Shown here: positions 36,192 through 42,406 of the stretch, piece after piece
How positions within the stretch are numbered: the stretch's first letter is position 1
Layout: each line of letters starts with the position of its first letter
Assembly (NCBI RefSeq): GCF_900605015.1
Contig: NZ_LR027573.1
Coordinates: forward strand, 313,995 to 377,994
From: Olsenella sp. Marseille-P4559
GTDB taxonomy: Bacteria; Actinomycetota; Coriobacteriia; Coriobacteriales; Atopobiaceae
Direction: 5' to 3'
DNA: 64,000 bases
The notes under the pieces: generated by a model
Seen by the model: the letters and a program-made list of their open reading frames with translations, nothing else
Told to the model about the DNA's origin: nothing
Databases searched by the model: none
Translations under genes and position numbers: made by a program

Positions 36192-36644
36192 CTACTTGGT
36201 GCCCTTACCCCTGCCCACAAAGGCAGAGACCACAGAGAGGAGCCAGGTTACCAGGGACACCACGATGATCGCAACCGCCTGCATGGCGGCTTCGTGGGCC
36301 TCAACGTTGCCAAGCTCGAGGTTCGAGCCAAGGACCTGGGCCAGTGACTCTACGCGTGCGGAGATGAACATCACGCCCGCGACCGCGACGAAGGCGGGAA
36401 CGGCAACGCGAAGGACGTCGGAGAGGACCGCCTTGGCGCCTCCTCGCGAGCCGCACCCTAGCGCGATGACCAGGACCTCGCAGGCGACTGCCAGGACGAG
36501 AAGCACGACGATGACGGGGCTGAGGTCGACATAGTACGCGCGGGTCGCGTTCATGACATAGAGCACGAACGTCACGATGCTCAGCAGGCAGACGCTGACG
36601 TAGAGCACACCCGCTGCCCCCAAAGACTTCTTCTCAGAACCCAT
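36192..36644 (-). CDS. Small four-TM membrane protein, partner of permuted GH3
   Basis: 150 aa with four hydrophobic helices: GAAGVLYVSVCLLSIVTFVL, LSPVIVVLLVLAVACEVLVI, VAVPAFVAVAGVMFISA and AIIVVSLVTWLLSVVSAFV. Both ends are short and charged. Its ATG overlaps the stop of the upstream GH3 gene by one base, so the two proteins are made together. It could anchor or pass signals for the surface GH3 enzyme, but no family is recognised. Confidence 0.7.
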   Translation of the reverse strand: MGSEKKSLGAAGVLYVSVCLLSIVTFVLYVMNATRAYYVDLSPVIVVLLVLAVACEVLVIALGCGSRGGAKAVLSDVLRVAVPAFVAVAGVMFISARVESLAQVLGSNLELGNVEAHEAAMQAVAIIVVSLVTWLLSVVSAFVGRGKGTK

Positions 36645-39600
36645 TAGTTCTCCTCCTTAGCTTCCTTCTCGTCACGCGCGCCCTTCACGGCGTCGCGCAC
36701 GTACAGCGCGCCGAACACGGCGGCAAGTCCATAGCCGGCGACCGTGGCTCCGTTGAGCGCGGCCTCCCACCAGGGCGTGACCCTCACGGTCTTGATGTTC
36801 TGGGCGGCACTCTGGGCAAACGCATAGAGCTGGTACTTCATGTTCTGGCGGGCGTACTCGACGAGCGTCGCATCCGAGACGATGAGGTCGTGGGTCATGT
36901 AAGGCCAGCTCTCCTGGACGTCTGCCAGGGTCTCGTCGGTCGAGAAGTCGGCCATCATCGTCACGCCACCGTAGATGCACATCTCGGGACGGAAGTAGCC
37001 AGGGTTGCTCACCATGTCGGTCGACATGAGACCGTTGAAGCCCCACTCACCGCGAAGGATGTTGCGCAGGAGGCCCCACGATCCGTTGACGGGCGTCGCG
37101 CCGACCCTACCGAAGGCGGTCATGATTCCAAGGGCGCCAGCATCCTCGAAGGAGGCGCGGAAGGCGCGCAGCTCGCCCTCGCGGGCCTTCTGCTCGGTGA
37201 AGTAGGGAGCAATGCCTCCGCGCCTCGACTCCTGGTCGTTGAAGGCAAAGTGCTTGGGGCCGATGATCACGCCGTACTCGAGCGCACCCTCAACCGTGCG
37301 GACGGACATGGCGCTCGAGAGCACCGGATCCTCTGAGTAGTACTCGAAGTTGCGTCCGTTGTAGGGGCAGCGGTGAATGTTGGCAGCGGCACCCCAAAGC
37401 AGGTAGTTGCCACTCCAGAGGCCATCGTTGCCCAGCAGCTCGCCCCAGCTCTTTGCGATGTCCTCGCTGAAGGTGCTTGCGATGGCCGTCTCGCTTGCCA
37501 TGGTATTGAGGACATAGGAGGCATTTGCGTCGTCGGTGTGGAGGCCGCGGCCAGAGATCGTAGTGTTGAAGCCATTGGGGCCGTCGTTCTGGTAGACGAC
37601 GGGATTCTGGATCTCGGGGATAAGGTCGGACTGGCTTCCGCCCTTGATGATCTTTGCGAACAGCGTGTCCACGGGGATCTCGTCCACGAGCCTGTCCCAC
37701 TGGGAGTCGTCGACGTTGTCATCTCCCGCGAGGTCGGCGAGAGTCAGGCCCGCCGAGGCGCCGTCGATGTCAGTGACCTCGCCGTTCTGGGTAATCTCGT
37801 ACTGCTCGCAGCAGAGGTTCTTGATCCACTCCTCTTGCTTGTCACCGTCGATTGTCAGGTCGTCGTAGGTGCGGGGGAAAGTGCCGTTCCAATCGCTTCT
37901 CGTGAGCTGGGTGGCGTAGTCCGGCTTGTAGTAGTTCACGTCGGCGCTCGCGAGCTGATTCGTAACCTCGGTGCCATTCTTCGACTTCGAGAGCGTCGAG
38001 TCATCGACGGTGCCCTCGGAGCCAATGGACTTGATGCTCACCATGGACGCGTCGCCCTCCGCGCCCTTGCCCTGGGCAGCCAGGACGTTGTTCACGGCTG
38101 CATGGGCGTTCTCGGCAATGAGGAAGCAGTAGTCTCCCCCATCGAGAATCCAGCCACCCTTGCCGCTCTTTGCGAAGACATCCCAGCTGGCCATGTCATA
38201 CAGGTCGGCGGTGATGGTGAGCTGCTGGTCGTCACCTGGCTTGAGCTCGTCGGTCTTCGCGATGCCAATGAGCTGGATCGCGGACTTCTCGACGCCCGCC
38301 TTCTTGTCGTAGTCGGTGTAGGGCACGGAGACGTAGAGCTGAACGACATGCTTGCCAGCTACGGAGCCGTTGTTGGTGACGGTAACCTTTGCGGTGACGG
38401 TCTTCTCGTCCATGTTCACCTGGACGTCGTCGAGCGTCTGCTGGAAGGTGGTGTAGGACAGGCCATAGCCGAAGGGATAGGCGACCTCCTTATCGTAGTC
38501 CCATGATGAGGCACCGTTGGAGGCTCCGGCAGAACCGGTCGCGTTGCCTCCGCCGACCACGGCATCGTAGTAGCGGGTCTCGTAGTACTTGTAGCCGGTG
38601 TAGATTCCCTCTGCCTCGATGAGGTAGTAGGCGGATGCCGTGCTGTTCTCGCCACCGAGGAAGCCGCCCGCGATGTCGGTGCCCATGGTGCCCATAAGCG
38701 AGCCTGGCCAGGTGATCATGGACGTGTCGGCGATTTTGATGGAACCGAAGTTCTGCGATGCGGGGGCCATGGCGGTGTCCACAGCGAAGGTGTCGGGGAG
38801 GCAGGCCGAGGGGCTCACGGTACCATCGAGGACGTCTGCCACGCCGAGCATGCCATACGCGCCGGGGAAGCCGATGTTGAGGATGGCGGTGATCTTGGAG
38901 GCGTCCTTGAGGTCGCCCAGCTCCATGGTTGAGCCGCTATTGACGAGCACAACCACCTTGTCGAAGTGCTCCTCGGCGAGCTGGATGAGGGCGCGCTCGT
39001 TGGTGCAGATTCCCAAGGGGTTCTTAGTTCCATAGGTCTCGGCGTCGATGCCTGCGGCACCGGGGTAGTAATCGCTGCCCTCAGAACCGGGACGGGAGAG
39101 CACCACGATCGCTGCGTCTCCGTACTCAGCGAAGCTGCTGGCAAAGTCCTCGCTTGCGCCACCCTCGCTAACGTAGGTGTCGAAGGACGGCTCGTTAGGC
39201 ACGTAGGGGGTCGCAAAACCAGCGGGGCGATACTTGTAGGAGACGGACTTCATCCAGGGCGTCGGGTTGGCGGCGGCGGTGTCCTCGACGGCGCCAAGGG
39301 TCTCGTAGATGCCGGTCATGGTGGGGTTGAGCTCAAAGCCCGCCTGTTCGAGTGCTGTCACCAGATCGACCGCGGCGTCAGTGGTAATTGTTGAGCCCAT
39401 CTTGCCGCCCAGGAAGGGGTACATGGAGCCCATCCCCAGGAGCGTCACCTTTGCACCCTTTGCAAGCGGCAGCGCCTGGCCCTCGTTCTTCATGAGGACG
39501 GTGCCCTCCTGGCCAACGCGGCGCCCCAGATCCTCGTGTGCCTTAATCAGGTCATCGGTCGTCGCGATGCTCGGAGTGAACTTGTCATCCGCCGTCTGCT

Positions 39601-39742
39601 CGGAGCTCGTCGTACCCAGAGCGGAGTCGATGGTCCCCCTCCAGGAGTCCACAACGCCGTGCAAGCCCGTCAGTCCAAGGCCGGCAGACAGTGCAAGGGC
39701 AACGGCACCACGGCGCGTGACCTGCTTCTGTTCAATCCCCAT
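36644..39742 (-). CDS. Surface-anchored GH3 beta-glycosidase with permuted domain order
   Basis: 1032 aa. A twin-arginine-like signal (QVTRRGAVALALSAGLGL) leads. The GH3 C-terminal sandwich comes first (GQEGTVLMKNEGQALPLAKG, SEGGASEDFASSFAEYGD). Then come YPFGYGLSYTTFQQTL and a fibronectin-III-like domain (TVTNNGSVAGKHVVQLYVS), and only then the TIM barrel (WGAAANIHRCPYNGRNFEYY, GPKHFAFNDQESRRG) with the nucleophile Asp in GLMSTDMVSNPGYF. A C-terminal TM helix (AALNGATVAGYGLAAVFGAL) and charged tail anchor it. Usual GH3 order is barrel first, so this is permuted. It would hydrolyse glycosides outside the cell. First gene of the leftward operon; RpiR may control it. Confidence 0.88.
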   Translation of the reverse strand: MGIEQKQVTRRGAVALALSAGLGLTGLHGVVDSWRGTIDSALGTTSSEQTADDKFTPSIATTDDLIKAHEDLGRRVGQEGTVLMKNEGQALPLAKGAKVTLLGMGSMYPFLGGKMGSTITTDAAVDLVTALEQAGFELNPTMTGIYETLGAVEDTAAANPTPWMKSVSYKYRPAGFATPYVPNEPSFDTYVSEGGASEDFASSFAEYGDAAIVVLSRPGSEGSDYYPGAAGIDAETYGTKNPLGICTNERALIQLAEEHFDKVVVLVNSGSTMELGDLKDASKITAILNIGFPGAYGMLGVADVLDGTVSPSACLPDTFAVDTAMAPASQNFGSIKIADTSMITWPGSLMGTMGTDIAGGFLGGENSTASAYYLIEAEGIYTGYKYYETRYYDAVVGGGNATGSAGASNGASSWDYDKEVAYPFGYGLSYTTFQQTLDDVQVNMDEKTVTAKVTVTNNGSVAGKHVVQLYVSVPYTDYDKKAGVEKSAIQLIGIAKTDELKPGDDQQLTITADLYDMASWDVFAKSGKGGWILDGGDYCFLIAENAHAAVNNVLAAQGKGAEGDASMVSIKSIGSEGTVDDSTLSKSKNGTEVTNQLASADVNYYKPDYATQLTRSDWNGTFPRTYDDLTIDGDKQEEWIKNLCCEQYEITQNGEVTDIDGASAGLTLADLAGDDNVDDSQWDRLVDEIPVDTLFAKIIKGGSQSDLIPEIQNPVVYQNDGPNGFNTTISGRGLHTDDANASYVLNTMASETAIASTFSEDIAKSWGELLGNDGLWSGNYLLWGAAANIHRCPYNGRNFEYYSEDPVLSSAMSVRTVEGALEYGVIIGPKHFAFNDQESRRGGIAPYFTEQKAREGELRAFRASFEDAGALGIMTAFGRVGATPVNGSWGLLRNILRGEWGFNGLMSTDMVSNPGYFRPEMCIYGGVTMMADFSTDETLADVQESWPYMTHDLIVSDATLVEYARQNMKYQLYAFAQSAAQNIKTVRVTPWWEAALNGATVAGYGLAAVFGALYVRDAVKGARDEKEAKEEN

Positions 39743-41083: not shown

Positions 41084-41719
41084 ATGGACAAAGATCGCAT
41101 GGAGGCGTTCAGCGATGGCGTGATTGCCATCATCATTACAATCATGGTTCTTGGGATTTCTGCGCCGGAGGGCAATTCGCTCGCCGACCTTCTCAGCCTT
41201 GTCCCTGCCATCTGCGCCTATGCGGTGAGCTTCGTTGGCGTGGGAACATACTGGAACAACCACCATCACCTGCTCAAGCTCGTCTGTCGCGTGAACGGCC
41301 GCATGCTCTGGGCCAACCTCGCTTTCTTGTTTATGCTCTCGTTCTTCCCTCTCGCAACCGACTGGATGCAGAAGACTGGATTCTCGGCACTGCCCACCAC
41401 CTGCTATATGTTGCTCAACATACTTGTTTCGCTTACGTATATGAATCTGGAGCGCATCATTCGTCACCAGTTGAGTGGGAGCACTCCGGCTGCGGCAGCC
41501 ACCGAAAGCGAGATGGCAAAGCGTGCCGCCATGGAAAAGCGCTCGCTCTTGAAGGAGCGGCTAACCTTGGCATTTGAGACGGTAGCGCTGGTGCTGACGC
41601 TGCTTTTACCCAGCTCACACTATGCCGTTGTGCTGCTTGCCCTGGCCTTCCTCCTGTGGATTGTGCCCGACCTACGCATCGTACGGCTGCTCGATTTCCT
41701 CTCCGAAGAGGATGGGTAG
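41084..41719 (+). CDS. TMEM175-family potassium channel-like protein (DUF1211)
   Basis: 211 aa, six TM helices. The family hallmark, RMEAFSDGVIAIIITIMVL, opens the protein (FSDG forms the pore in homologues). YWNNHHHLLKLV and LFLFMLSFFPL-type segments follow, then a charged loop and IVPDLRIVRLLDFL at the end. Start ATG 41084 follows GAGGGGAACCAC. It is monocistronic, and the role is probably ion conduction across the membrane. Confidence 0.88.
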   Translation: MDKDRMEAFSDGVIAIIITIMVLGISAPEGNSLADLLSLVPAICAYAVSFVGVGTYWNNHHHLLKLVCRVNGRMLWANLAFLFMLSFFPLATDWMQKTGFSALPTTCYMLLNILVSLTYMNLERIIRHQLSGSTPAAAATESEMAKRAAMEKRSLLKERLTLAFETVALVLTLLLPSSHYAVVLLALAFLLWIVPDLRIVRLLDFLSEEDG

Positions 41720-41730
41720 ACTTCCGCAGC

Positions 41731-41981
41731 TGCACAAAAACGCCCTATCGCGGGGGATTCGGCACCTCGTTGCACAAAAACGCGCTAACGCGGGACACTA
41801 AAAGCCAGCCAATATCAAATTTACAACTACATATACAGTTTCTATAATATTTTACCTATTATTTCCATTATTATGTATCAAGAAGTTCAAACACTGATAT
41901 CGGTCTCCCAAATGCCCCCGCGATAGCCCGTTTTTGTGCACCGTACCCGAGATTTCCCAGCGATAGGACGTTTTTGTGCAG
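41731..41981. repeat. Double inverted TGCACAAAAACG array around an AT-rich core (family D)
   Basis: Four 12-mers, TGCACAAAAACG, each followed by a variant of SCTATCGCGGG. Two direct copies on the plus strand (41731 and 41771) and two inverted (ending 41941 and 41981), each pair exactly 40 bp apart. Between them, 41800-41910 is strikingly AT-rich against the GC-rich background, with TATAAT-like boxes. It fills the 309-bp gap 41720-42028 between two convergent genes. No ORF is present. Confidence 0.85.
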
Positions 41982-42028: not shown

Positions 42029-42406
42029 CTACTCGTTCATGCCAGGATGACGTCGCAGGCGCTTGACTGCGGCGCGTCGGCCCTTCTCATCCAGCCGCCG
42101 ACGCACGGACGCCCGCGTGGGCTTGGTCGCATGCCGCTTCTTTGGCCGGCGTGAGCGTCGGGCCAGTTCGGCATGAATTTTCTCGAGGCAGCGCTCACGA
42201 TTCCGCAGCTGACTACGCGACTCCCTGCTCACCACGGTAATGTCCGTAGGCACATGGCGCATGCGAACGGCGGAGTCTGTCGTGTTGACGCCCTGTCCGC
42301 CCGGACCCGTAGCGCGAAATGCCTCCGCCTCGCACTGGCGCGCAAGTTCCGCCGATGAAAGGTTCGCATAGTGGGCATAGTCACGATATGTTAGTTTCTT
42401 CTCCAT
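42029..42406 (-). CDS. Release-factor-like GGQ protein (ribosome rescue, ArfB/PrfH-like)
   Basis: About 125 aa with only the peptidyl-tRNA hydrolysis domain: the GGQ loop is in ATGPGGQGVNTTDSAVRMRH and a basic C-terminal tail follows (RRSRRPKKRHATKPTRASVR). It lacks codon-recognition domains, so it probably frees stalled ribosomes, like ArfB. ATG 42406 reads MEKKLTYRDYA; an upstream TTG is possible. It faces the array and the TMEM175 gene. Confidence 0.85.
   Translation of the reverse strand: MEKKLTYRDYAHYANLSSAELARQCEAEAFRATGPGGQGVNTTDSAVRMRHVPTDITVVSRESRSQLRNRERCLEKIHAELARRSRRPKKRHATKPTRASVRRRLDEKGRRAAVKRLRRHPGMNE

Follow-up and report, generated by a model that had tools for sequence, protein, structure and literature searches.

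The usual explanations for dispersed palindromic repeats in bacterial genomes are selfish DNA in decay and RNA hairpins. In the BIME and RIB/RIP elements of enterobacteria, inverted REP units are arranged around an IHF site. Repeated binding sites are also a feature of Mu/Tn7/IS21-type transposon ends, each of which holds several transposase sites and has TG...CA termini, while parS, matS, and the gyrase sites of BIME-2 are dispersed chromosomal sites of 13 to 25 bp, conserved over wide groups and served by one architectural protein. A REP unit is defined by a GT(A/G)G head followed by a GC-rich imperfect palindrome, and REP units are thought to bind protein and to evolve along with it, as in RAYT-REP co-evolution (PMC2817692). 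The Correia elements of Neisseria, or NEMIS, are MITEs of 105 to 156 bp, the longer of which contain an IHF site (PMC2229807). We found no description of such repeats in Coriobacteriia in the literature searched. The element described here is a variant of these dispersed palindromic intergenic elements. Despite a resemblance to REP/BIME and to Correia-type repeats, it has the tested defining features of neither, and we classify it as a new variant because RAYT linkage, the REP head, target duplication, and near-identical copies are all absent. In function, it is closest to the longer Correia elements and to those REP/BIME that contain IHF sites.

We analyzed a 64-kb stretch of DNA (the window) from the 3.09-Mb, 10-contig genome of Olsenella sp. 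Marseille-P4559 (G000). One copy of the element occupies positions 41731 to 41980, where two direct and two inverted units surround an AT-rich core. An initial annotation had described four near-identical units arranged as two inverted pairs, 40 bp apart within each pair. This description agrees with our results, since TGCACAAAAACG has four exact matches in the window, all of them within the element (41731 and 41771 on the plus strand; 41929 to 41940 and 41969 to 41980 on the minus strand), and direct repeats at a spacing of 40 lie on both sides. When up to 2 mismatches are allowed, the window contains 9 matches versus 3.5 expected, and 0 of 100 shuffles reach 9. The repeat unit proper (TGCACAAAAACGNNCTATCGCNGGG, ~25 bp) is longer than the version first given, and the extent originally assigned to the element (41731 to 41981) starts correctly but runs one base too far. 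The outer left unit, TGCACAAAAACGCCCTATCGCGGGG (41731 to 41755, plus strand), includes the pattern TGCAnnAAA..CTATCG, which is nearly invariant in a 30-copy alignment. Exactly 40 bp downstream of it, beyond an inter-unit linker (41756 to 41770), is the inner left unit (41771 to 41795, plus strand). The inverted inner right unit (41916 to 41940, minus strand) and outer right unit (41956 to 41980, minus strand) are likewise 40 bp apart, and the inverted arms, 26 to 31 nt in length, are 87 to 92% complementary.

The core (41796 to 41915) had been described as AT rich, and indeed its GC content falls to a minimum of 21% at 41811 to 41900, compared to 54 to 70% per kb across the window. It contains the motif ATCAA (41814 to 41818, plus strand), the motif AACTA (41825 to 41829, plus strand), known from the alignment and consensus of the copies, and a right-hand counterpart of ATCAA (41894 to 41898, minus strand) that reads CTGAT in the window copy and TTGAT in the consensus. 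The IHF consensus fits the core partially, at just the ATCAA half. As the initial annotation had stated, no open reading frame lies inside: no called gene falls within the window copy. The left neighbor, which encodes a TMEM175-like (PF06736) membrane protein (41084 to 41719, plus strand), ends 11 bp before the element, and the right neighbor, which encodes an RF-1 domain (PF00472, ArfB/YaeJ-like) protein (42029 to 42403, minus strand), converges on the element with its gene end 48 bp away. The only Rfam match, a subthreshold one to MIR841, a plant miRNA family (26 of the 200 bits needed; 41733 to 41979, minus strand), is an artifact of the long inverted repeat. Elsewhere in the window (36644 to 39742), we observed a glycoside hydrolase family 3 protein with reversed domain order, in which the C-terminal domain (residues 81 to 376) precedes the N-terminal domain (residues 750 to 912).

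Further pairs, which the initial annotation had suggested seeking in the genome and its relatives, are numerous. The genome of origin has 17 exact 12-mer matches, and independent BLAST searches found further full-length copies there, many of them diverged. A sequence-only profile was built from 30 copies, comprising copies from elsewhere plus the window copy, and in it the window copy has an E value of 2.5e-40; this copy is far above chance expectation. With both-strand matches halved for counting, the profile gave ~21 copies of this type (type I) in the genome of origin and 15, 10, 12, 10, 7, 11, and 4 in the other seven species compared, all eight belonging to the genus Tractidigestivibacter (family Atopobiaceae). 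The total of ~90 copies consists almost entirely of full-length elements (249 to 251 bp), and fragments, such as a half copy in G006, are rare. The ~21 copies per genome argue against an origin-like region, one of four options initially offered for the locus. Profile and pattern scans of the genome of origin found neither isolated end pairs nor an autonomous version. A scan of named genomes for the exact unit gave no match, probably because the unit subtype of this genome is nearly confined to it. Spread across genera is patchy (1 of ~31 species in genus g4 and 1 of 3 in genus g27). The sister species of G085 and G128, two carriers in other genera, are without matches, and elsewhere among 397 genomes of the order there are just single, chance-like matches. 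A phage, plasmid, or viral origin was rejected, as the unit is absent from viral contigs, no phage matched, and the single plasmid match, to 44 bp of the core in a Clostridiaceae plasmid, is weak and was taken as chance. Matches of the generic pair pattern in viral contigs, each occurring once, were also taken as chance.

The geometry of type I is nearly invariant. In the 59 copies with all four units, drawn from 8 species, the spacing within pairs is 40 bp in 58 and 39 bp in one, the inner units are 144 to 146 bp apart, and the total length is 249 to 251 bp, a range to be read in light of the four-unit scan, which favors 249 to 250 bp. An N{30,33} pattern, which permits other spacings, nevertheless yielded a spacing of 40 for almost every type I case. 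Linkers from different copies have near-random identity (34 to 35%) while their length stays fixed. The unit consensus is TGCAYAAAAnnGCYCTATCGnACGG, and the consensus of the whole element is symmetrical, its core being a palindrome at this level (ATCAAnnnTTnAACTA...TGCATATTTT and their mirror images). Like BIME and RIB/RIP, these elements are dispersed, intergenic, and palindromic, with inverted units flanking a core that may bend DNA. Unlike BIME, they have four 25-bp units at an exact 40-bp spacing and lack a GTAG/GGAG head, their units are not GC-rich palindromes and have no linked Y1 transposase, and there are ~4 to 21 copies per genome rather than the usual >100. A five-unit copy was observed in G002 (contig 2, 460770 to 461058; L220), with an exact duplication of the 40-bp unit-plus-linker module in its right arm. 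Locally perfect inverted halves occur in single copies, in the core of one (L023, 2060 to 2150) and in the outer arms of another, where the linkers are identical (L229, 2478 to 2729; G085 contig 362), a pattern expected from template switching or from conversion of one arm by the other.

Three more element types, with different units, occur in Tractidigestivibacter and two further genera (243 to 246, 252 to 256, and ~225 to 243 bp). Type II (unit TGCATCGAACTCGCCTTCGTTACAC, 243 to 246 bp) coexists with type I in Tractidigestivibacter. G085 carries at least 14 type III elements (252 to 256 bp), in which the unit is TGCAYGAAACTCGCCTTCGTGCGACGYA and the core is asymmetrical, while G128, from a third genus, has six elements of ~225 to 243 bp with unit TGCATAAAAnnnTCGCTCGTGCTACATT. 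At the window locus, type I is also present in five further species (in one as a half copy), G004 has type II, and G007 retains one type II unit. Two more loci vary in type. One is occupied by type I in three species and by type II in G002; here the flanking coding sequences match at 98 and 90%, but the intergenic block is different throughout. At the other, five species have type I and G007 has type II. Different types at one place can mean kept sites with type turnover, or a hot spot. In a comparison of two closely related species, the entire intergenic block flanked by conserved genes has been replaced, and the two versions each contain one element, of different types (L074, 1739 to 2289, versus L384, 1452 to 1982). 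Neighbor genes common across genera were considered for types II, III, and IV and dropped, since the elements lie on different gene sides and the number is near chance. Other Atopobiaceae genera have inverted repeated units with different spacing (L173, ~1430 to 1600, in G148, and L169, ~1335 to 1485, in G073; AACTGTACATTTA... and GGTAAAAAATCGTCTTAGTTGGGG), and in G119 of genus g4 two type I units form a 74-bp inverted pair (L172, ~1474 to 1548) that looks like a bidirectional terminator or a deletion derivative.

The several families with different ends in one genus, the patchiness over genera, and the occupation of one locus by different types in different species would all be consistent with a MITE-like nonautonomous element. 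Its paired end units would serve as transposase-binding sites in the manner of Mu/Tn7/IS21-type ends, an unlinked transposase would move it, and the short fixed core would be a length that still lets the ends be brought together. The copies have the hallmarks of MITEs in that they are small, noncoding, AT rich, dispersed among intergenic regions, and bounded by terminal inverted repeats. Like Mu, Tn7, and IS21 ends, they have repeated sites of transposase size at each end and TG...CA termini. However, unlike those transposons, they have no internal or linked transposase gene and no target duplication, their core is conserved at the motif level, and rve transposases are missing from two carriers, G007 (10 copies) and G004 (4 copies). 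Like Correia elements, they are intergenic palindromes with inverted ends and an AT-rich core holding a protein-binding motif (PMC2229807), although here the motif is putative; unlike them, they lack a TA target duplication, are 250 bp long and fixed in length, have doubled ends, and are 65% identical rather than near identical. Target-site duplication is at chance level (39 independent copies, k of 2 to 9, offsets of -3 to +3), and identity within a genome never exceeds 80% (10 genomes; means of 0.60 to 0.71), so that there is no signal of recent amplification. Mobility is further disfavored by the genome of origin, where neither an autonomous copy nor isolated end pairs were found, and by the absence of the unit from viral contigs, phages, and plasmids apart from the weak 44-bp core match. 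Of the transposase classes covered, Y1 and rve, the latter was rejected as a common mover because of the two carriers that lack it. PF01797 (Y1 transposase-like) proteins (L399 to L406) are present in 7 of the 8 species, one or two in each, with long open frames (~195 to 310 amino acids), and absent from G000, and no repeat units were found within ~1.5 kb of eight examined PF01797 loci. A RAYT/REP link was therefore rejected, the Y1 gene having no units nearby and being missing from the genome with the most copies (21). The mobile-element option of the initial annotation remains the main rival with regard to origin, given the dispersed, patchy, and multitype distribution, but neither target-site duplication, an autonomous copy, near-identical copies, nor a Y1 or rve transposase in all carriers accompanies it, and we consider it possible but doubtful.

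Copies at the same locus in several species form 15 groups. Selection was estimated from 18 orthologous pairs, which are not independent, as species recur in several of them. Indel events per substitution were 0.044 in the element versus 0.171 in adjacent noncoding DNA, making them ~4 times rarer. Substitutions per site in these pairs were fewest in ATCAA (0.015), the slowest-changing part of the family, and low in the units (0.078 and 0.094) and in TGCATA (0.09), and they rose to 0.15 to 0.21 in the linker and spacer and to 0.31 to 0.40 in the center. Overall, the element and its flanks substitute alike (543/4461 versus 760/6232), so that the element shows no hypermutability. Between orthologues, purifying selection acts on the units and the core motifs. 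Such selection on motifs and length in fixed orthologous copies speaks against a MITE-like element. We conclude that today's copies are of old date and maintained by selection, and we infer that the original spread was probably via an ancient mobile process.

Within any one copy, all four units are of the same subtype. This subtype varies from species to species, also among copies at one locus. Most copies in the genome of origin have CGCGGGG and several others have the GATATCGnACGG form, while CGGACGG or CGAACGG is found in most other species and CTAACGG in most G007 copies. At one locus in three species, insertion offsets match, and the copy from the genome of origin (L064) has a unit subtype different from that of the other two (L075 and L109). 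All six within-copy comparisons between units exceeded between-copy identity (z of 5.8 to 11.2), compared to a z of 0.1 for linkers. Covariation between arms is weak in the genome of origin alone (P = 0.09), where subtype differences are partly a mixture of two subtypes, and strong with 53 representatives, in which it is mainly confined to the units and alike for all unit pairs. Shared subtypes would be expected if many sites co-evolve with a single trans-acting factor, and the presence of at least two subtypes in one genome suggests paralogous factors. Species-specific subtypes also fit the MITE-like alternative, as repeated waves of transposition would give lineage-specific subtypes too.

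Confinement of covariation to the units bears on a possible role in RNA, in which a hairpin in read-through transcripts would terminate transcription in both directions or stabilize or process mRNA, as proposed for Correia/NEMIS and ERIC. Predicted folds are strong on both strands (z of -4 to -23), units read outward finish in T tracts, gene settings are mostly tandem or convergent, and the 74-bp unit pair of G119 resembles a bidirectional terminator. Nevertheless, a strong predicted fold is expected of any long inverted repeat. Chimeras of two copies fold about as well as natives, which are not consistently more stable. Overall, pairing is no stronger between the two arms of a native copy than between arms taken from separate copies, and in type III it is weaker. 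Neither linkers nor spacers covary between arms, and no compensatory changes preserving pairing were found. Hairpin or RNA structure was thus rejected as the selected property. Moreover, a hairpin needs neither exact 40-bp and 145-bp spacings nor an AT-rich core with motifs of its own, and an RNA role appears improbable.

Repeated operator-like sites around an AT-rich core could instead form an operator or bidirectional promoter for adjacent genes, and a few copies are indeed located upstream of genes, one of which, in G002 and G005, is nrdD-like (a name based on sequence only). However, of 100 elements with both neighbors called, 57 are in tandem, 30 in convergent, and only 13 in divergent settings, and the window copy itself is between convergent genes, which gives no support to the bidirectional promoter initially listed. 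The neighbors are functionally unrelated housekeeping genes that indicate no common pathway, and the presence of 10 to 20 copies with the full 250-bp architecture also counts against local gene control. We regard control of adjacent genes as very improbable. Given the mixed gene orientation and lack of a common pathway, an architectural or insulating role fits better than gene control.

Among the four options of the initial annotation, the protein-organized one is best supported, by exact geometry, purifying selection at the motif level, covarying units, and the absence of hairpin selection. Conserved sites at fixed spacing and under selection, as expected of a protein-binding architectural site, are present in the element. 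It is an even call, in our judgment, that the element is a chromosomal assembly site with fixed geometry for a putative sequence-specific DNA-binding protein. Four protomers or two dimers would occupy the units in a defined helical arrangement, and the flexible core, perhaps bent by an HU/IHF-type protein, would let both sides meet, forming a compact nucleoprotein loop at some 10 to 20 intergenic places per chromosome. The host may benefit through nucleoid architecture or through insulation of supercoils or transcription. The sites may first have spread by an ancient transposition-like process, after which the specificity of the protein would have drifted and the sites followed. Such elements would act like partition, macrodomain, and nucleoid-protein sites, several dispersed sites being bound by one architectural protein; parS, matS, and gyrase sites, by contrast, are short and lack a four-site, 250-bp geometry. 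Observations that count against an assembly site include the patchy distribution, which is unusual for a host-essential site, and the unrelated neighbor genes, which indicate no target process.

Extending this reading to the family is more tentative. Atopobiaceae might possess previously undescribed architectural sites, ~250-bp four-site loop scaffolds for paralogous DNA-binding proteins whose specificity drifts quickly, with all sites in a genome rewritten together while the geometry stays fixed. Sequence and geometry are separable in these elements, as linkers are randomized and inter-site distances are fixed to ~1 bp across species and four element types with different site sequences. Such a pattern suggests that a large protein-DNA complex forms at set positions on the chromosomes of Actinomycetota common in the gut and rumen. 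The elements would offer a clear target for finding a DNA-binding protein and may provide a natural example of a protein whose specificity has changed in step with that of its entire set of sites.
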